Origin: an uncultured Spirochaetia bacterium
Lineage (GTDB): Bacteria; Spirochaetota; UBA4802; JAGODF01
Reading direction: 5' to 3'
Length of the DNA stretch: 16,766 nucleotides
NCBI GenBank assembly: GCA_937967705.1
Contig: CALCJG010000159.1
Coordinates: forward strand, 1 to 16,766
Made by a program: the position numbers and the translations under genes. Positions 1,978-9,935 of this stretch are shown one piece after another. The notes beneath the pieces are model-generated. The model saw nothing but the letters and a program-made list of their open reading frames with translations, was not told the DNA's origin and searched no databases. Numbering within the stretch: the first letter of the stretch is position 1; every line of letters begins with the position of its first letter.

Positions 1978-2646
1978 GTGCGGGTTCTGATCATCGAAGA
2001 CGATCCCAAGGTGGCCGCTTTCATCAAGAAGGGGCTGGAGGAGGAACAGTATGCCGTGGACCTCTCCAGCGACGGAGAGGACGGTCTGCACTGGGCCCTG
2101 GAGAATCCCTACGATGTCATCATCCTGGACGTGATGCTCCCGGTAAAGGACGGCCTGGAGGTCTGCCGCGGGATACGGGCCTCGGGCTCCCATACACCCA
2201 TTTTGATGCTGACCGCCCGGGACCGGCTGGAAGACAAGGTCCTAGGCCTCAACACCGGGGCGGATGACTACCTGACGAAGCCCTTCTCCTTCGAGGAACT
2301 GCTGGCCCGCGTGAGGGCCGTCCTGCGCCGCTCCCAAAGCTACCGGACCGAGACCCTCAGGATCGCAGACCTGGAGCTCGATCCCGTTTCGCGCCGCGTT
2401 ACCCGGGCGGGAAAGGAGATATCCCTGACGGGCAAGGAATACTCCCTGTTGGAATACCTGATGCGCAACGCAGGCCGGGTCCTCACGGAGACACAGATCA
2501 TCGAACACGTATGGGACATGAACTACGATCCAGCCGCCAACACCGTCAACGTCTACCTTCACCATCTGAGGAACAAGATCGACCGGGAGCACGGGAAGAA
2601 GCTCATCCACACCATCCGCTCCCTCGGTTATGTTCTGAAGGAATAG
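1978..2646 (+). CDS. OmpR/PhoB-family response regulator
   Basis: This is the DNA-binding half of a two-component system, 222 residues from GTG 1978. The receiver domain (1-115) starts VRVLIIEDD with acidic residues D8 and D9. Phospho-acceptor D51 lies in ILDVMLP, T79 in MLTARD and K101 in LTKPF, so all switch residues are present. The C-terminal winged-helix domain (about 125-222) has the ISLTGKEYSLLEYL entry, a recognition helix around NTVNVYLHHLRNKID, and the wing IRSLGYVLKE. The closest familiar types are CusR/CopR and PmrA/QseB-like regulators, but visual similarity does not settle the subfamily. It is followed after 12 bp by its kinase, and the likely target is the repeat array at 4090-4127. 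Starting at ATG 1912 would add a tail lacking family character. Confidence 0.95.
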   Translation: MRVLIIEDDPKVAAFIKKGLEEEQYAVDLSSDGEDGLHWALENPYDVIILDVMLPVKDGLEVCRGIRASGSHTPILMLTARDRLEDKVLGLNTGADDYLTKPFSFEELLARVRAVLRRSQSYRTETLRIADLELDPVSRRVTRAGKEISLTGKEYSLLEYLMRNAGRVLTETQIIEHVWDMNYDPAANTVNVYLHHLRNKIDREHGKKLIHTIRSLGYVLKE

Positions 2647-2658
2647 CGTGCGGCGTTT

Positions 2659-4104
2659 GTGATCATGAACATGTCCCTGAGGTCCCGTCTCGTCTTCCAG
2701 TTCATCGCCATCAGCGCCCTTCTCATACTGGGTTTCTTTACCTTCATCTACATCAACTTTTCCCATGCGATATACGACCGGAGCATAATAGAAAAATTCG
2801 ACAACGAGCTCAGGAAAACGGCCTCGGACCTGGGCCATTACCGGGCGGAATTCAACAGCCGGATACGCAATGACTTCTTCCTCAGCTCCTCCTACGGACA
2901 GCTGAGGGACTACCCCCGGCAACTCAGCGACGATCCCCTTATCGTTATACGCAACATAGCTCTGCAGGACAAGCGCATCCCCCTCTCTCCCGAGGCCTTT
3001 GCCGCCCTCCGTGAGGGGCGGACGCACATCGAGACCGCCCGGGAGGTCTTTCCCTTCCCCCTGAGGGTGGTCAGCATGAAGGTTCACGACCGGGAGGGTC
3101 AGCAGTACATTTTACAGATGGGCATGTCCATGCAGTACATCAGCATCACCCTGGCAAAACTTCTGCTGAAATTCATTCTCCTGGGACCGTTTCTGCTGGC
3201 CGTCATCGCCGGGCTGGGCTATCTCTTCGTCAAAAGGGCCCTGGCCCCCGTCCGGAAAATCGTCACCACCACGCGGCAAATCACCGCCCAGGACCTATCC
3301 CTGAGGCTGGAGACCATCGAGAGCCGCGACGAGATCGGGGAACTTTCGGAAACCCTCAACGGCATGATCGCCCGGCTGGAGACATCCTTCAATCAGATAC
3401 GGCAGTTCTCCGACGACGTGTCCCACGAGATCAAGACCCCCCTGACCATCATGAAGGGGGAGATCGAGGTCTGCCTGCGTCATGAGAGACCCACTGAGGA
3501 ATACCGGGACATACTCCGCAGCATACTGGAGGAGATCGACAAGCTCAACCGTATCATCGAAAACCTCTTCTTCCTCTCCCGCATGGACTCGGCGGACATC
3601 GCCGAGGGATTCCGGGAAACGGATCTGGACAAGGTGCTGCTGGAGGTCTTCGAGGAGTTATCCCCGCTGGCCGCCGGGAAGAACATCGCTCTTAACATAC
3701 AGCATCTTGCGGAGATCGCCCTGAGGGGGGATGCGGCTCTACTGAAGAGGCTCTTCAGCAACCTCATCGTCAACGCCGTCAAGTACACTCCGGAAGGCGG
3801 GTCCGTCTCCCTGAGCCTGGAGGAATGGCAGGAACTGCCGGAGAAAACCCCTCCGGGCGCCGTCTTCATCATCCGGGACAACGGCGAGGGCATCCCGGAG
3901 CGCTCCCTCCCCCGTATCTTTGACCGCTTTTACCGGGTGGACAAATCCCGGTCCAGCCTGACCGGCGGAACAGGCCTGGGTCTCACCATCGTACGGAAAA
4001 TCCTCGATCTCCACGGAGGGAAGGTTACCGTGGACAGCCGGGAGGGCCAGGGAACGACTTTTTTCCTTTTTTTCCCGAAAAACCGTAATATTAATAAACA
4101 TTAA
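2659..4104 (+). CDS. membrane sensor histidine kinase (HAMP-HisKA-HATPase)
   Basis: This is an inner-membrane sensor that autophosphorylates and passes phosphate to the adjacent regulator. It has TM1 at about 8-32, a periplasmic sensor region of about 135 residues with no recognised fold, TM2 at about 166-190, then HAMP (about 192-245). The HisKA H-box is SHEIKTPL with H256. The ATPase domain has an N-box with N372 in LIVNAVKYTPEGG, a G1 box from D407 in RDNGEGIP, an F-box in RIFDRFYRVDKSRS, and a G2 box GTGLGLTIV from G437. All catalytic motifs are intact. The overall layout resembles CusS/PmrB/QseC-type kinases; the ligand is unknown. The start is uncertain: GTG 2659 is the first possible codon, with ATG 2665 and ATG 2671 as alternatives. 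None has a well-spaced ribosome site, so translation may be coupled to the regulator gene 12 bp upstream. The stop codon lies inside the operator-like repeats. Confidence 0.95.
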   Translation: MIMNMSLRSRLVFQFIAISALLILGFFTFIYINFSHAIYDRSIIEKFDNELRKTASDLGHYRAEFNSRIRNDFFLSSSYGQLRDYPRQLSDDPLIVIRNIALQDKRIPLSPEAFAALREGRTHIETAREVFPFPLRVVSMKVHDREGQQYILQMGMSMQYISITLAKLLLKFILLGPFLLAVIAGLGYLFVKRALAPVRKIVTTTRQITAQDLSLRLETIESRDEIGELSETLNGMIARLETSFNQIRQFSDDVSHEIKTPLTIMKGEIEVCLRHERPTEEYRDILRSILEEIDKLNRIIENLFFLSRMDSADIAEGFRETDLDKVLLEVFEELSPLAAGKNIALNIQHLAEIALRGDAALLKRLFSNLIVNAVKYTPEGGSVSLSLEEWQELPEKTPPGAVFIIRDNGEGIPERSLPRIFDRFYRVDKSRSSLTGGTGLGLTIVRKILDLHGGKVTVDSREGQGTTFFLFFPKNRNINKH

Positions 4105-4127
4105 TCTTCCTTTAATCTCTCTTTAAT
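4090..4127 (+). promoter_or_regulatory. operator-like direct repeats for an OmpR-family regulator
   Basis: Four hexamers read ATTAAT (4090-4095), ATTAAT (4100-4105), TTTAAT (4111-4116) and TTTAAT (4122-4127). The last three are spaced exactly 11 bp (hexamer-N5-hexamer), and the first is 10 bp before the second. Head-to-tail half-sites one helical turn apart are the usual binding layout of OmpR/PhoB-family dimers; the PmrA/BasR box has the same TTAA-N5-TTAA shape. The array overlaps the end of the kinase gene and precedes the exbB-like gene. Binding by the neighbouring regulator is inferred. Confidence 0.65.
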
Positions 4128-4137
4128 CTCCCCAGGC

Positions 4138-4143
4138 TATATT
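4138..4143 (+). promoter_or_regulatory. -10 element of the TonB operon promoter
   Basis: TATATT begins exactly 10 bp after the last TTTAAT half-site. No good -35 hexamer lies 17 bp upstream; the repeats occupy that place. This is the arrangement of PhoB-type activated promoters, where the activator replaces -35 contacts. Transcription would begin near 4150, giving a leader of about 137 nt before the ATG at 4287. Confidence 0.5.
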
Positions 4144-4286
4144 CCTACTGTCTCATCAGAGAAGTTGTATGCTGTACTGTCCCATCGCCCTCCCTATAGT
4201 TTAAGGAAGAAAAAGCAGGGGGGTGATGTGCGGTCAATCCCCGAACTGACAGGTTTAACCCATAACCGTACCAAGGAGAATGAACC

Positions 4287-5045
4287 ATGAACCGAAAACA
4301 CCTCAAGCTCATCCTGGCCCTTCTGCTTTCCGCCCTGCTGGCCTTTGCCCTGACGGCCCCGCTGATTTACGCCCAGGGAGAATCTGCCGCCCCGCAGGAA
4401 AAGACGCTGTCACCCCAGGAAAAACCCGCCGAGAACGGAAAAAAGGAACCCGCTTCCAACGGGACCTCAGGCAATCTCTTTACCACCTTCCGCCAGGGGG
4501 GAATACTCATGTGGCCGATCCTCCTGCTGGGACTCGTGGGCCTGACCATCATCATTGAGAGGACCATCTACTTCCTGCGCAACCGGCTCTGGGACGACCG
4601 GGTTCTGGAGGCGCATATCGACTCCCTCGTCGCGGACACCGACGCCCGTTTCCGCGAGGAACTGGACGACGAGATCAACGGACGCATGCAGAACTACTTC
4701 CATTCCGTGGAGAGGGGGATGGCGCTGCTCAACGGCGTGGGAAACCTGGCCCCGGTCATCGGCTTCTTCGGGACCGTGCAAGGGATGATCGGCGCCTTTG
4801 CCGCCATCGCCGCCGCCACCACCGTAAACGCCAAGGTCGTAGCCGTGGGCATACAGATCGCCCTGATCACCACCGCCGGGGGTCTTGCCGTAGCGGTGCC
4901 CACCCTGGCCTTCTTCCATTTATACACCCATTTCATCCAGACCCTTTATGCGAAGACGGACAAGCTGGCCTCCCAGAAGACCGGTCATCTGCCGCGTTTT
5001 TCCTGGAATCAGCCCATGAAAACGGAATCCGAAACCAGTGCCTGA
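4287..5045 (+). CDS. exbB: ExbB/TolQ/MotA-family proton channel protein
   Basis: This inner-membrane subunit pairs with ExbD to use the proton gradient to energise TonB. ATG 4287 follows AAGGAG (4273-4278) with an 8-nt spacer. Residues 1-29 form a signal peptide (cleavage expected after IYA29). Residues 30-70 form a hydrophilic stretch rich in Pro, Lys and Glu, absent from minimal ExbB proteins. TM1 lies at about 73-90, a short cytoplasmic region of about 55 residues follows, then TM2 (about 150-172) with GFFGTVQGM at 159-167, the family signature, and TM3 (about 185-208). At 252 residues it is near family length. It heads an operon with two exbD genes, tonB and a receptor gene, which favours ExbB over TolQ (no Pal, TolB or TolA nearby) or MotA. 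It was probably the first gene transcribed from the promoter at 4138. Confidence 0.92.
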   Translation: MNRKHLKLILALLLSALLAFALTAPLIYAQGESAAPQEKTLSPQEKPAENGKKEPASNGTSGNLFTTFRQGGILMWPILLLGLVGLTIIIERTIYFLRNRLWDDRVLEAHIDSLVADTDARFREELDDEINGRMQNYFHSVERGMALLNGVGNLAPVIGFFGTVQGMIGAFAAIAAATTVNAKVVAVGIQIALITTAGGLAVAVPTLAFFHLYTHFIQTLYAKTDKLASQKTGHLPRFSWNQPMKTESETSA

Positions 5046-5056
5046 GCGAGGAGATC

Positions 5057-5491
5057 ATGTTCTACAACTACTATCTACGCAGAAAGGCACGCCGGCACTC
5101 CCAGCCAAGGCCCTATGAGAGCTTCGACACCACGTCCATCGGGGACCTTTCCTTCAATCTCCTGATCTTCTTCATCGTCACCGCCTCCTTTATCCTCAAG
5201 GAGGGCATCTTCTTCTCCCTGCCTTCCAAAACGGCGGGCGTGGTGCAGGTGGAGGCACGACAGCTGGTGGATATTCAACCGCTCAACCAGGGTTTCATGA
5301 TGGAGGGGATGCATCTGTCCCGGGAGGACCTCAAGACAAGGCTGATACTGCGGAAGAAGGCGAACCGGGACATCATCGCAATCATTCACATGAATCCCGG
5401 GGTAAGGTACGAGAGGCTGGTGGATACCCTGAGCGTATCGCGGGAAAGCGGTATCAGCCGCATCTCCCTGAAAAACGACGACCGGCGCTGA
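5057..5491 (+). CDS. exbD: ExbD/TolR-family protein, copy 1
   Basis: This is a proton-motive-force coupling subunit with 144 residues, one N-terminal membrane helix and a periplasmic domain. A basic cytoplasmic N-terminus precedes the helix (about 27-48, SIGDLSFNLLIFFIVTASF). D30 sits where the proton-binding Asp of ExbD and TolR is found. The periplasmic part ends with the family's pattern of an Ile-rich strand and a helix (DIIAIIHMNPGVRYERLVDTL). GAGGAG at 5048-5053 precedes ATG 5057, and the gap from the exbB-like gene is 11 bp. It differs clearly from the second copy that follows, so the two probably form a mixed complex or alternate partners. Confidence 0.9.
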   Translation: MFYNYYLRRKARRHSQPRPYESFDTTSIGDLSFNLLIFFIVTASFILKEGIFFSLPSKTAGVVQVEARQLVDIQPLNQGFMMEGMHLSREDLKTRLILRKKANRDIIAIIHMNPGVRYERLVDTLSVSRESGISRISLKNDDRR

Positions 5492-5496: not shown

Positions 5497-5502
5497 ATGA
5501 GC

Positions 5503-5925
5503 ATGAACCGTAAACCCGGAAACAAAAGATCCTTTCTGCTGAAGTTGAGACCCTTCGTGCTGGGCGCCAGCGCCGGCGACATCGCCCTGCTCCTGCTGGT
5601 CTTCTTCATGGCCTCCACCTCGACGGAACCGCCCAAGGGCGTCGAGGTCAACCTCCCCCTGGCGCAGACCCAGAGCATCGACCAGGAGGGCCTCTACATC
5701 ACTGTCTCTAAACAGGGGGCTCTCTACATGGACGGCAAGCAGATGACCCTCCAGGAGATCAGCGACAACCTGGCCATGCGGCAGTCGGAGAAGGAGCACG
5801 TGATCTCCATCACCGCCGACCGCAATCTGGAATACCGCCAGATCCGCCCGCTCCTGGACGTTTTGAAGGAACAGGATTTTCTCAACGTCGCCTTCATCTC
5901 GGAAGCGAGGAAGGATAAGCCATGA
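5503..5925 (+). CDS. exbD: ExbD/TolR-family protein, copy 2
   Basis: This is a second coupling subunit of 140 residues from ATG 5503 (two codons shorter than the longest frame; see the AGGAGG site). The membrane helix (about 20-40, GASAGDIALLLLVFFMASTS) carries D26 at the conserved proton-site position. The periplasmic domain has the standard order: a hydrophobic strand after the helix (VEVNLPLAQ), the central ITVSKQGALYMDGKQM hairpin with a following helix, and the VISITADRNLEYRQIRPLLDVLKE segment. It is closer to typical ExbD than copy 1. Its stop overlaps the tonB start in an ATGA junction, so the two are translationally coupled. Confidence 0.92.
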   Translation: MNRKPGNKRSFLLKLRPFVLGASAGDIALLLLVFFMASTSTEPPKGVEVNLPLAQTQSIDQEGLYITVSKQGALYMDGKQMTLQEISDNLAMRQSEKEHVISITADRNLEYRQIRPLLDVLKEQDFLNVAFISEARKDKP

Positions 5926-6578
5926 ACAACATGAACTACGAGATACATCACTACTTCCTGGAAACCCTCAGGAGGGTATCGGACTGGGAGGACCGGCATC
6001 CCTATTTCTTCTCCCTATTTTTCTCGGTCATGATCATCAGCCTGCTCCTGTTTTACACCACGTCTCCGGATATATCCTCGGAGGATCTGATGCCGTCGGA
6101 CCGGATCGAGTTCATCGACATGGAGAAGATCGAGATGCGGGCCCCCCGGCGCGTGGTAAAGCCGGACATCGCGGTGACCGACAAGACCAGTTCCACACCG
6201 GAAAAATACGTAGACAAGGCCGTGGGAACCTCCGATGATGCCAATGCGGTGGACCTCGCCATCTTCCCCAACGTTGCCCCTCCGCGTCCCATCGGGAAGC
6301 TGATGAAGTCCTACCCCCAGGTCGCGAAGGATGAAAACGTGGAGGCCACGCTGAAGGTGGAGATACTCATCGCCTCCAACGGCAGGGTCAAGAGGGTCAA
6401 CATCCTGGGAATAAGACTCTCCAAGGACCTGCCCCCGGACAAACACAGCAGCATCTCAAAGGCCTTCGCGCGGGATGCCCTGAAGATACTCAAGAGCGTC
6501 CGCTTTACACCGCCCATCGTCAACGGCAAGCAGACGCCGGTGAAGATGGAAATGCCGCTGCAGTTCAGGCTTAATTAA
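5922..6578 (+). CDS. tonB: TonB-family energy transducer with short linker
   Basis: This protein is anchored in the inner membrane and reaches the outer-membrane receptor to open its plug. It has 218 residues: a cytoplasmic tail of about 27 residues, one TM (about 28-46), a linker of about 70 residues, and a TonB C-terminal domain (about 118-218). The last begins PPRPIGKLMKSYPQVA (Y131) and continues through a VEATLKVEILIASNGRVKRVNILG strand-turn-strand to a closing VRFTPPIVNGKQTPVKMEMPL. A family feature that is missing is the long Pro-Glu/Pro-Lys spacer: only a few scattered prolines occur. The ATG overlaps the exbD stop by four bases, and the sequence GAGGAAGGA just upstream serves as ribosome site. 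The receptor gene starts 10 bp after its stop, indicating a dedicated transporter. Confidence 0.92.
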   Translation: MNNMNYEIHHYFLETLRRVSDWEDRHPYFFSLFFSVMIISLLLFYTTSPDISSEDLMPSDRIEFIDMEKIEMRAPRRVVKPDIAVTDKTSSTPEKYVDKAVGTSDDANAVDLAIFPNVAPPRPIGKLMKSYPQVAKDENVEATLKVEILIASNGRVKRVNILGIRLSKDLPPDKHSSISKAFARDALKILKSVRFTPPIVNGKQTPVKMEMPLQFRLN

Positions 6579-6588
6579 GGATAAGGTT

Positions 6589-9135
6589 ATGAGCATGAAG
6601 AACAAGAAACTCTCACTCCCGGGACTGATCCTGTCAGCTGCCCTGTGCATGGCGTACCTCCTTGTGCCGGACCCGAATCTCCTGCTGGCCCAGGGGGGCA
6701 AGGGGATAACAGTCAGCGGCAAGGTCTACAACAGTGCCAACGGAAAGCCCGTGGACATGGTAACCGTCGTCTTCGTGGAGGCCCGGCTGAAAACCTACAC
6801 AGACAGGAGCGGCTCCTACAGCATAGTACTGCCCGGGCCGGGCAACTATACAGTCCGCCTGCTCTCATCGGACCTCCAGTCCCGGAGCCTTAAACTCGAT
6901 GTAAAAGGCGACAGGACGCAGAACTTCTACCTTCAGCCCCGCACGGTCAAGGGCGCCGGACTGACCATCGAGGGGGAGCGGGACATACAGAAGGTGGGCC
7001 GCCACACCATGACCAAGAAAAACCTCAAGGAGGTGCCGGGCTCCTTCGGTGATTCCGTCAATGCCCTCACCTCCCTGCCCGGCGTCATACGCACCAACGG
7101 GTTTTTCGGGCCCCTGGTCATCCGGGGGGGAAATTTCCTGGCCAACAAGTACTTCATAGACGACATCCCCGTCTACAACCCGATGCACTTCGGGGGAATA
7201 CACTCGGTGATCAACAACAACCTGATCCGGGAGATCGACCTCTACGCCTCCGCCTTTCCCGCCCAGTACGGCTCGGCCAATTCCGCAATTATAGACATCA
7301 ACACCGTGGACAGCGTCAAGGAGTTCGGAGGGTATACCGACGTCGGGCTCATCTCCGCTTCGGCCCTCATCCAGGCGCCCATACTGAAGGACAAGACGGG
7401 ACAGGTCCATTTTGCCTCGCCCTACTACGTTCCGGAGGAGCAGAAGGATATGCAGAACGCCGGGTACGTCATCGCCTCCGGGCGGGTGGGATACCTGTCG
7501 ATCTTCATACCCTATATCGTCAAGGCCATCACCGGGGAAAAGCCCTCCGTGGTTCCCCAGTACTGGGATTATCAGACCAAGATGAAATACTATCTCAACA
7601 GCGACCATTCCATCACCCTCTTCTTCATGGGAAGCCACGATTACCTGAAGGTCCTGGACTCCAGCGACTTCATCAAGCCCGACGAGGGGGACGACCCGCT
7701 CCTGGTGGGGGCCAAATTCAAGGTCAACTGGACCTCCCACAGCCAAGGGATCTATTACACCTTCCAGCCCTCGGAAAAGTTCACCAACCGTCTCATGGCC
7801 TACAGCGCCCTGCTGCACTACTACACCTACCTGGACATTCCGGCGGAGGGGGTGGCGGATGCCTTCAAGGACATCCGGGTGAACAGCTATCCCTACATCT
7901 ACGGAGCCAAGGACCGGTTCAAACTGGAGGTCATCAAGAAACATTTCGATCTCTCCGGCGGTTTTGAGTACACCTACTACCATTTCAAGGCCAAGGGAAA
8001 GACCATCATGAACACGACGCAGAGCGAGGACTTCAACCTCGCCGATCCCAACCTGCATACCGCCGTCCCCCTGGACATCACGGTTACGAACTACACCCTG
8101 GGGGGATACGGGGAGATGAAGGCCCGCTGGTTCGGGTTCACCCTGGTCCCCGGAGTGCGGGCTGAGTATTTCAAACGAACCGGGCAGTCCATCGTGGACC
8201 CCCGGGGAATGATCAGCTACGAATTGCCCACGGAGACGACCCTCTCCCTGGCGGGGGGCCAGTACAGCTATTTCTTCCAGACCAACCCCTTCCTCTTCTC
8301 GGAGGCGCCCCAGGTTACCGCCCTGGGCAAGGAGCTCAAGCCGGAGCGGGCCATACACCGCCTGGCGGGGATAGAGCAGAAGCTGGGGCTCTTCGTCGTC
8401 AAGACCGAGGCTTTCTACAACAGTTTCCGGGACCTGGCCGAGGGCTATTCCCATTACCAGCCCGACGGGACGCGGCTGGACGGCATGAGCACGGGACAGA
8501 TCCGCGCCAAGGGATTTGAGATCATGATCCGCAAGGATCAGCGTGAGAACGAGCTGGGGCTCTTCGGGTGGACCAATTACACCTACACCCGGTCCCGGCA
8601 CAAATCCGGGCTGCCCACGGAGGCCGGCCTCTACGGAATCACAGCCAATCAGGTGGGCGACCCCTACGGCGATCAGTGGACCAATTACCAGTACGAGCAG
8701 CGCCACGCCTTTAAAACGGTGCTGGGCTACAGCTTCAAGACCCAGAATTTCCGCGGCAAGCACACCCTGAGCGGCAAGTTTCAGTACTACACCTCCACGC
8801 CCTACACTCCCATCACCGGGGCCAAGAGGGACGACCAGTATTCCCTAACGCATCCCGGCAAGGAGCGCTGGACGGCCAGTACCGGCTATCCCTACTCCGC
8901 CTATTTCGAAAACGATCACCGGCTGGACGTGCGCTACAGCTACACACGCTACTATTCCTGGGGATACGTCAGCTGGTACGTGGAGGTGCTGAACATCTAC
9001 AATCACGTTCCCAAAAATTCGATGAAATGGGACTATCGCTATCCCTACAGCGACACCAACCCGGAGATCAAAAAGGATACGGAAAATCCCATCATGGGGA
9101 TCATCCCCAATTTCGGCGTAGAAGTGAAATTTTAA
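6589..9135 (+). CDS. TonB-dependent outer-membrane receptor with N-terminal carboxypeptidase-regulatory-like domain
   Basis: This is a predicted 22-strand barrel with 848 residues. A signal peptide (about 1-35, ending LLLAQ) is followed by a beta-sandwich like the CarboxypepD_reg domain (about 40-118: VSGKVYNSANGKPVD, then a DRSGSYSIVLPGPGNYTVRL turn). Next comes a possible TonB box around L125 (LTIEGE), then the plug (about 140-240) with SVNALTSLPGVIRTNG, the VIRGG motif (R179), YFIDDIPVYNP and the conserved AQYGSANSAIIDI end. The remainder is aromatic-rich alternating strands, ending in GVEVKF with C-terminal Phe, the usual barrel-assembly signal. No SusD-like partner is encoded nearby. The substrate cannot be deduced; metal chelates, vitamin B12 or small glycans are all possible. 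ATG 6589 and ATG 6595 are both acceptable starts, preceded by two AAGG sequences. It lies 10 bp after tonB and 25 bp before the first lipoprotein gene. Confidence 0.92.
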   Translation: MSMKNKKLSLPGLILSAALCMAYLLVPDPNLLLAQGGKGITVSGKVYNSANGKPVDMVTVVFVEARLKTYTDRSGSYSIVLPGPGNYTVRLLSSDLQSRSLKLDVKGDRTQNFYLQPRTVKGAGLTIEGERDIQKVGRHTMTKKNLKEVPGSFGDSVNALTSLPGVIRTNGFFGPLVIRGGNFLANKYFIDDIPVYNPMHFGGIHSVINNNLIREIDLYASAFPAQYGSANSAIIDINTVDSVKEFGGYTDVGLISASALIQAPILKDKTGQVHFASPYYVPEEQKDMQNAGYVIASGRVGYLSIFIPYIVKAITGEKPSVVPQYWDYQTKMKYYLNSDHSITLFFMGSHDYLKVLDSSDFIKPDEGDDPLLVGAKFKVNWTSHSQGIYYTFQPSEKFTNRLMAYSALLHYYTYLDIPAEGVADAFKDIRVNSYPYIYGAKDRFKLEVIKKHFDLSGGFEYTYYHFKAKGKTIMNTTQSEDFNLADPNLHTAVPLDITVTNYTLGGYGEMKARWFGFTLVPGVRAEYFKRTGQSIVDPRGMISYELPTETTLSLAGGQYSYFFQTNPFLFSEAPQVTALGKELKPERAIHRLAGIEQKLGLFVVKTEAFYNSFRDLAEGYSHYQPDGTRLDGMSTGQIRAKGFEIMIRKDQRENELGLFGWTNYTYTRSRHKSGLPTEAGLYGITANQVGDPYGDQWTNYQYEQRHAFKTVLGYSFKTQNFRGKHTLSGKFQYYTSTPYTPITGAKRDDQYSLTHPGKERWTASTGYPYSAYFENDHRLDVRYSYTRYYSWGYVSWYVEVLNIYNHVPKNSMKWDYRYPYSDTNPEIKKDTENPIMGIIPNFGVEVKF

Positions 9136-9148
9136 CTTTTTGGAAAAC

Positions 9149-9154
9149 AAGGAG
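9149..9154 (+). promoter_or_regulatory. ribosome binding site that fixes the start of the first small lipoprotein
   Basis: AAGGAG with a 6-nt spacer to ATG 9161. It overrules the upstream in-frame TTG at 9140, which would put charged residues before the signal peptide. Confidence 0.75.
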
Positions 9155-9160
9155 CGAGTC

Positions 9161-9568
9161 ATGACAATAAGAATGAAGATACTGCCCGTCACCGTCCTCT
9201 CCGCCGCACTCCTGCTGGTCACGGCCTGCAGCACATCACCCATCTGCCTTACCCCCTCCACGACCCCCCTGCAGGGAAAGGTGGTGGAGAAGAAGCTCGG
9301 CAAGGCGGAGGGAACCGACAGCGCCTTCTCCTTCCTGGGTCTCTGGATGTGGGGCCGCCCCGACATCGAGAGGGCCCTCAAGGAAGCGGTTGCGCAAAAG
9401 GGGGGCGACGCGCTGATCGACGTGCACTGCTACGAGACCTACCGCTGGTTCGTTCTCTTCGGCGTCACCACCTTCCGCATCGAGGGGGAGGCCGTCAAGC
9501 TGGGCACGCCCCCGGCGGATACCGGCATCATAAAGGGAAAGGGTAAAAAATCCCGAAGGCAGAGGTGA
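9161..9568 (+). CDS. small lipoprotein, first of a related pair
   Basis: Family not recognised. The protein has 135 residues from ATG 9161. The signal MTIRMKILPVTVLSAALLLVTAC places the lipidated residue at Cys23; the residues after it lack Asp at +2, which would favour the outer membrane under the Escherichia coli rule. The mature part has GTDSAFSFLGLWMWGRPDI, a short helix (ERALKEAVAQKGGDAL) and two hydrophobic strands (RWFVLFGVTTFRIEGEAV), then a basic tail ending KGKGKKSRRQR. The next gene repeats this plan, so the two arose by duplication. The helix-GGD-strand arrangement recalls small TRL-like or DUF-type lipoproteins, but the identity is not certain. It sits in the operon 25 bp after the receptor gene, suggesting a periplasmic or outer-membrane accessory. 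Confidence 0.85.
   Translation: MTIRMKILPVTVLSAALLLVTACSTSPICLTPSTTPLQGKVVEKKLGKAEGTDSAFSFLGLWMWGRPDIERALKEAVAQKGGDALIDVHCYETYRWFVLFGVTTFRIEGEAVKLGTPPADTGIIKGKGKKSRRQR
9562..9568 (+). promoter_or_regulatory. ribosome binding site that fixes the start of the second small lipoprotein
   Basis: GAGGTGA, nearly complementary to the 16S rRNA tail, overlaps the stop of the preceding gene. It is best spaced to ATG 9573 and too near the GTG at 9570. Confidence 0.7.
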
Positions 9569-9572
9569 TGTG

Positions 9573-9935
9573 ATGAAAGGGAAAGATTTGCTTGCCGTGT
9601 CGGCCCTGCTGATCCTCTGCACCGCCGCCGGATGCCTGCGCCTGCAGCGCCACCCGGGGGGTGTGAGTCCCTCGGCCTATCCCATGAAGGCGGAAAAATA
9701 CACGGTGCTGGAGGAGATACGGGGGGAGAGCAGCAGTTTTCACCTCTTCTGGTTCATCCCGGTAACCCGGAGGGCCACCCTGCAGGAGGCGGTGTCCAAC
9801 GCGATTCACGAAAAGGCCGGGGACAACCTGGTGGAGATATCCTGGTGGCGCGAGCGGCATTACTGGATTGTGGGGACGGTGGATCTCTATGTCGTCAAGG
9901 GAAAGGTGGTCAAATACAAGAACGAGGAGGAGTGA
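9573..9935 (+). CDS. small lipoprotein, second of a related pair
   Basis: Family not recognised. The protein has 120 residues with a clear lipobox (CTAAGC, Cys21). The mature part aligns with the preceding lipoprotein without large gaps. GESSSFHLFWFIPVTRRATLQEA matches GTDSAFSFLGLWMWGRPDIERAL in position. HEKAGDNLVEI matches AQKGGDALIDV, and HYWIVGTVDLYVVKGKVVKY matches RWFVLFGVTTFRIEGEAVKL. The shared points are G-x-S-x-F, K-(A/G)-G-D-x-L, the W before the strands, and G-x-VK at the end. It lacks the first copy's long basic tail. It begins 4 bp after the preceding stop and closes the operon; the opposing ftsK stop is 9 bp away. Function inferred only from context: an accessory of the TonB-dependent system. 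Confidence 0.85.
   Translation: MKGKDLLAVSALLILCTAAGCLRLQRHPGGVSPSAYPMKAEKYTVLEEIRGESSSFHLFWFIPVTRRATLQEAVSNAIHEKAGDNLVEISWWRERHYWIVGTVDLYVVKGKVVKYKNEEE

Follow-up and report, generated by a model that had tools for sequence, protein, structure and literature searches.

A candidate composite operator at the end of a sensor kinase gene may link a CusR/PcoR/AgrR-type two-component system to a TonB operon in Spirochaetota

AgrR of Cupriavidus metallidurans is a response regulator closely related to CzcR and CopR, and its binding site is the 6-4-6 inverted repeat ATKACANNNNTGTMAT. According to the accessible portion of that report, extra in-phase direct repeats matter for activation, changing the C-G pairs of the box nearly abolishes it, and AgrR is a possible type II activator (PMC7380067). 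Members of this subfamily can have narrow target ranges: the available sections of another study describe a single target for HprR and make CusR a conditional single-target regulator when unphosphorylated, whereas phosphorylated CusR bound more than 10 targets (PMC8249747). For PmrA, the base contacts given in the accessible text include Asn188 and Asn196 among others (PMC4660055). In Leptospira, a tonB-exbD-exbD-exbB cluster beside a TonB-dependent receptor is controlled by PerR, as far as the available part of the source goes (PMC7567364). Our literature search, which took in few subscription papers, found no report from Spirochaetota of the array described below or of a TonB operon preceded by such a regulator.

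The window, by which we mean the whole 16,766-bp stretch of DNA that was analysed, looks from its sequence like Spirochaetota DNA, and the closest receptor and kinase relatives with a named source come mostly from Spirochaetes or Spirochaetota MAGs. A regulator, a kinase, exbB, two copies of exbD, tonB, a receptor and two lipoprotein-like genes follow one another in that order on the + strand, with the array at the end of the kinase gene:

1978..2646, + strand: response regulator of the CopR/SilR/CzcR (TIGR01387) subfamily (Pfam, NCBIfam, alignment with relatives and E. coli regulators)
2659..4104, + strand: membrane sensor histidine kinase with HAMP, HisKA and HATPase_c domains (Pfam, NCBIfam)
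4090-4095, + strand: half-site 1, ATTAAT, within the kinase ORF, forming the dyad's upstream arm; 6/6 columns invariant in 6/6 sequences
4100-4105, + strand: half-site 2, ATTAAT, downstream arm of the dyad; T/A-TTAAT in relatives
4111-4116, + strand: half-site 3, TTTAAT, first direct repeat, at an 11-bp step from half-site 2
4122-4127, + strand: half-site 4, TTTAAT, second direct repeat, at an 11-bp step from half-site 3 and separated from the -10 by 10 bp
4138-4143, + strand: putative -10 element TATATT
4287..5045, + strand: exbB, first gene of the presumed target operon (Pfam PF01618)
5057..5491, + strand: exbD, copy 1 (Pfam PF02472)
5497..5925, + strand: exbD, copy 2 (Pfam PF02472)
5922..6578, + strand: tonB (Pfam PF03544)
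6589..9135, + strand: TonB-dependent receptor with an N-terminal carboxypeptidase-regulatory-like domain (Pfam PF13715 and PF07715, homologs)
9140..9568, + strand: small protein related to LIC20211-family lipoproteins, under the model cut-off
9570..9935, + strand: second small protein related to LIC20211-family lipoproteins, under the model cut-off

The regulator ORF spans 1912-2646 and opens 22 codons 5′ of where aligned homologs begin; judging from the sequence, the true start is probably the GTG at 1978. Relatives of the LIC20211-like gene pair (9140-9935) adjoin the receptor in many of the loci L001-L033. At L033 the receptor homolog (601-2855) is matched as four pieces in shifted frames, and it looks as if the gene is broken or the assembly in error. 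Elsewhere in the window, a 580-codon open frame on the + strand (2-1744) runs antisense to a minus-strand WD40-repeat gene and is probably a shadow of GC-rich coding.

A sequence-only reading of this DNA had called the array a PhoB/PmrA-type operator. That label does not suit the regulator, which scores 289.0 bits against the CopR/SilR/CzcR model TIGR01387 (cut-off 279.2) and falls far below the cut-offs of the PhoB model TIGR02154 (209.3 bits; cut-off 296.2) and the PmrA model NF007928 (189.5 bits; cut-off 330). Among PDB entries, the DNA-binding domain finds PcoR first (4.8e-24), with PmrA at 2e-11 and PhoB at 3.2e-11; the whole regulator finds DrrD (1kgs) first, and its identity to BasR is 37.6%. 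The ortholog at L002 scores 284.0 against TIGR01387, and the related regulators of three further genomes score below the cut-off (G050, 264.7; G082, 264.4; G071, 273.4). The kinase reaches 285.3 bits against TIGR01386, the heavy-metal sensor kinases, just under the cut-off of 292.55. Its structure model has a mean pLDDT of 73.8 and a pTM of 0.41, and the model's fold matches, mostly kinase cores or whole-kinase models, gave nothing on the signal or the sensor domain.

The recognition helix of the regulator reads VYLHHLR in the window and VYIHHLR in three orthologs. RR or KR precedes LR in all seven proteobacterial subfamily members that we examined, a yardstick of our own, and HH stands in that place here. 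By our own count on the alignment, the positions of PmrA Asn188 and Asn196 are occupied by N and H in the window regulator. The half-site letters and the helix thus both lean towards PmrA, though the protein is not PmrA.

At the level of the letters, most of the sequence-only description proved accurate. The half-sites start at steps of 10, 11 and 11 bp, so that three of them (starts 4100, 4111 and 4122) keep the exact 11-bp period that had been claimed. TATATT follows the last half-site at a gap of exactly 10 bp, again as described, and the stated lack of a -35 agrees with promoter prediction, which found no sigma-70-type pair in 3900-4400. The array was also correctly placed directly 3′ of, and partly inside, the kinase gene: half-site 1 lies within the ORF and the stop codon TAA (4102-4104) falls within half-site 2. 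Between kinase and exbB, no terminator-like site is predicted in 3900-4400, and RNA-based readings gave no Rfam match and no tRNA.

What is not supported is the description of the half-sites as running head to tail. There are four of them, as claimed, but the orientation of the first is ambiguous: ATTAAT reads the same on both strands, so its letters reveal no direction. Four related sites in two genomes, G050 and G082, are informative here. Half-site 1 is ATTAGA in all four, and half-site 4 is TCTAAT in three of them. Because ATTAGA is the reverse complement of TCTAAT, we infer that half-site 1 is probably inverted.

The 10-bp first step fits a 6-4-6 dyad, ATTAAT-AAAC-ATTAAT, followed by two in-phase direct repeats, a layout like that described for AgrR. 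Its outer arms, ATTA-N8-TAAT, are present in all six orthologous sites chosen by kinase and in 4 related sites, two of which were found by that pattern itself. The inner C-G pair (ATTACA/TGTAAT) is absent, ATTAAT/WTTAAT being present in 6/6, and the array differs from ATKACANNNNTGTMAT by more than 2 mismatches. An in-phase direct repeat and a type II position relative to the -10 are both found, as judged from sequence only. The array would represent an A/T-switched form of the CusR/PcoR/AgrR-subfamily composite operator, a switch familiar from copper and silver resistance, set 3′ of the kinase gene. Apparently new here are TTTAAT for TGTAAT, HH for RR in the helix, and a TonB system as the target.

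Chance is an unlikely source of the array. Searching the 16,766 bp for WTTAAT-N5-WTTAAT-N5-WTTAAT with up to 3 mismatches returned three overlapping matches, all at this place and one of them exact; the same three-site pattern appeared in 0/200 shuffles of the whole stretch. Neither the three-site nor the four-site pattern arose once in 2000 shuffles of a 400-bp region, whether that region came from the window or from any of five relatives.

To find these relatives, a receptor profile was used to collect 79 loci, with genes mapped in L001-L033 and all 79 scanned for the four-site pattern. It occurs only in L002 and L032, the two in which this kinase precedes exbB. Whole-genome searches with the kinase brought in G001 (L080), G023 (L082) and G038 (L083); across 198 relatives and 392 genomes of the phylum, strong kinase matches (E below 1e-90) are limited to G001, G002, G023 and G038. 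A further genome, G015, entered through its receptor locus, and its kinase is cut by the contig; in G015 and G038 alike the kinase is cut in this way and no regulator is visible. Another 17 kinase homologs (P0002-P0018) are 47-54% identical, may in some cases represent the same loci, and are excluded from the array scores.

In all five relatives found with an orthologous kinase before exbB, the array stands at the end of the kinase gene with steps of 10-11-11, and a T....T hexamer again lies 10 bp past it. The loss of half-site spacing that would have spoken against the sequence-only reading is thus absent from the intergenic alignment it had proposed. In a gap-free alignment of the window and the five relatives, 19/20 columns of the TTAAT core are invariant, compared with 3/18 of the other array columns, 1/10 of the gap between array and hexamer, 2/6 of the hexamer and 0/96 of the columns downstream. 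Mean pairwise identity is 98.3% for the core, 58.1% for the other array columns and 25.8% downstream. The alignment is anchored on a pattern drawn from the same six sequences; the five relatives were picked by kinase or receptor instead.

The kinase stop falls within half-site 1 in L080, L032, L082 and L083 and just 5′ of it in L002, the frames of L002 and L083 being taken from matches. Half-site 1 is fully coding only in the window. Half-sites 3-4 lie past the kinase stop in 6/6 sequences and half-site 2 in 5/6. Protein constraint is therefore no explanation for the conservation of half-sites 3-4 in any of the six sequences, or of half-site 2 in the relatives.

The array also follows the kinase. 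At seven exbB loci without this kinase upstream (L004, L005, L006, L008, L023, L025 and L027), no two-, three- or four-site array lies within 500 bp of exbB; for four of them (L004, L005, L006 and L008) a search of the whole genome also gave no match to the kinase at E 1e-50. In four genomes from outside Spirochaetota (those of L022, L028, L035 and L039) no array was found.

Scans for a regulon were run on the five relatives' genomes, which are MAGs with no completeness given, in place of the window's own genome. Half-sites 2-4 plus the hexamer, with up to 2 mismatches, were sought in 12 genomes; in each of the five relatives the sole match with 0-1 mismatches is this locus, and the AT-rich G010 and G012 have one 1-mismatch match each, elsewhere. 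With a looser pattern of two sites plus the hexamer, the five genomes yielded one extra place (G038, C168:5428), a second G023 match being the same array. Upstream of the regulator gene, the nearest 350 bp hold no dyad in the window or in the three orthologs with a visible gene, so autoregulation, as reported for AgrR, is not indicated here.

A wider scan of 392 Spirochaetota genomes for exact ATTA-N8-TAAT-N7-TAAY-N7-TAAT-N10-TWNNNT gave 11 matches in 9 genomes, compared with 4 for a reversed-pattern control. Five are the orthologous locus, four are in G050 and G082, which have a related regulator, and two are elsewhere. The latter (G112 and G282) were taken as chance, there being no two-component system within the 3.0-3.5 kb examined. 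Arrays at L024 (10889) and L093 were likewise set aside as chance, since the ORFs listed nearby include neither a related regulator nor a related kinase, and L123 (G071) has only degenerate half-sites after its kinase.

In G050, the same composite promoter follows a related regulator-kinase pair and precedes the gene for a sigma-70-family sigma factor (L125:4543-4596), with a second copy before an OmpA-family gene (L137:2240-2293). From this arrangement, the G050 two-component system may control a sigma factor. In G082, one copy precedes a receiver-regulator-kinase operon (L140:1747-1800) and another follows its kinase (L126:2985-3038), where the contig soon ends; these flanking copies suggest autoregulation in that relative.

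The distance from the dyad to the -10 is 32 bp in the window and across the spirochaete set. Four of six known-type boxes examined have a candidate -10-like hexamer at a distance of 33 bp: TATAAT downstream of pcoS, TAAAGT at cusC, TATCCT at hiuH and TACACT at czcE. The divergent boxes were measured towards cusC and hiuH. The czcE region has a second candidate, TACAAT, at 24 bp, and two other plasmid copR-type upstream regions have no -10-like hexamer in range. TG stands one base 5′ of the hexamer in four of the five relatives and is absent in the window; it accompanies all four G050/G082 hexamers (TAAAAT, TATAAT, TATACT and TACTAT). Position 2 of the hexamer is A in just 3/6 orthologous promoters, and the -10 is therefore weak as a sequence signal.

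Taken together, the region 4090-4143 is very probably the output promoter of the upstream two-component system, driving the TonB operon. We infer that the regulator binds here and activates rather than represses. Its proximal protomers would do the work of the missing -35 and assist sigma-70 RNA polymerase at the weak -10 (4138), and transcription of exbB-exbD-exbD-tonB-receptor-lipoproteins would start near 4150. Such a promoter, placed where the kinase gene ends, would be of type II and depend on the regulator. The sequence-only reading had proposed the neighbouring regulator as the candidate binder and the TonB operon as its target, and both remain likely, the spacing being kept in 5/5 relatives; its broader assignment, an OmpR/PhoB-superfamily operator with a -10 and no -35, is also supported. 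Against our reading, A/T letters occupy the place of the C-G pairs that are critical in AgrR.

The array might instead be a plain PhoB/PmrA-type operator, four tandem head-to-tail half-sites for two tandem dimers. Half-sites 3-4, TTTAAT-N5-TTTAAT, do fit the PmrA consensus (C/T)TTAA(G/T)-N5-(C/T)TTAA(G/T) of PMC10729948, and by eye the helix NTVNVYLHHLR is nearer to NTLEVHIHNLR of BasR/PmrA than to NAIDVAVKRLR of CusR. However, the first step is 10 bp, not 11, in the 6 orthologous and 4 related sites, half-site 1 of the related sites is ATTAGA, the inverse of the TCTAAT at half-site 4 in three of the four, and the regulator fails the PhoB and PmrA models; we regard this alternative as unlikely. 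QseB would offer a precedent for TTAA binding. We set it aside, since PMC10729948 gives a different QseB consensus.

A repressing role for the array with the regulator bound, or one in stopping transcription that reads through from the kinase gene, is rather improbable. In its favour, no terminator-like site lies between kinase and exbB, so that read-through could also express the operon, and in the accessible part of PMC11195947, Pseudomonas CopR represses pcoA2 through a palindrome from which CusR activates. Yet a site that ends 10 bp 5′ of a -10 lacking a -35 is in the position of a type II activator, and its geometry is within 1 bp of that of four subfamily boxes. AT-rich tracts beside promoters can raise transcription without a regulator. 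Another regulator might bind, or the repeat might serve as a UP element or a histone-like protein site, but the exact phasing, the letters held invariant across kinases of 49-55% identity amid diverged spacers, and the presence of the array with the kinase and its absence without it make such a role very improbable.

If the array is indeed the output promoter, it forms a candidate regulator-operator pair in uncultured Spirochaetota, where our search of the literature found no studied example, and would connect a metal-type sensor system to TonB uptake instead of efflux. With letters of the half-sites and residues of the helix changing in concert while the geometry stays within 1 bp, it could also serve as a natural experiment in which an OmpR-family regulator changes DNA specificity while keeping its placement relative to RNA polymerase. 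Tentatively, and with a little less than even confidence, we suggest that the spirochaete regulators are a natural insulated specificity class, in which RR/KR became HH (or NY) as TGTAAT became TTTAAT/TCTAAT in every half-site, and in which the composite promoter moved among unlike targets with its 10-11-11-10 spacing kept. By sequence, such targets would include a TonB uptake system, a sigma factor and an OmpA-family gene. We do not put this higher because just two of six regulators with an NY-type helix have the array nearby (L125 and L126; no clear array in L124, L086, L088 or L089, in stretches of about 350 bp upstream of the regulator and 300 bp downstream of the kinase), a count that tells against a strict helix-site rule.

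Among known systems, the AgrR consensus is ATKACA-N4-TGTMAT, compared with ATTAAT-N4-WTTAAT here, and AgrR has several targets including its own gene, in the portion of PMC7380067 available. Unlike the AgrR box, each of the 10 sites here has two downstream direct repeats at 11 bp. The boxes of E. coli CusR and HprR share the dyads (ATGACA-N4-TGTCAT and ATTACA-N4-TGTAAT) and an in-phase TGTCAC or TGTAAG 11 bp on; they differ in their divergent promoter layout, C-G half-sites and a helix with KR or RR. Similar in arrangement are pcoRS, with the site downstream of pcoS, and czcRS-czcE, where a regulator-kinase pair likewise has a 6-4-6-like box 3′ of the kinase, with 1 and 2 mismatches. No target gene is annotated just after pcoS in the record used, a place that we take to be that of pcoE. 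These two systems differ in their C-G half-sites and in neighbours annotated for metal resistance, not TonB uptake. The PmrA box consists of two tandem half-sites, as the accessible part of PMC3973317 has it, and the regulator here belongs to another subfamily. Finally, the Leptospira cluster shares tonB, two exbD genes, exbB and a receptor with this locus and differs, according to the available part of PMC7567364, in being controlled by the Fur-family regulator PerR, with no neighbouring two-component system mentioned there.
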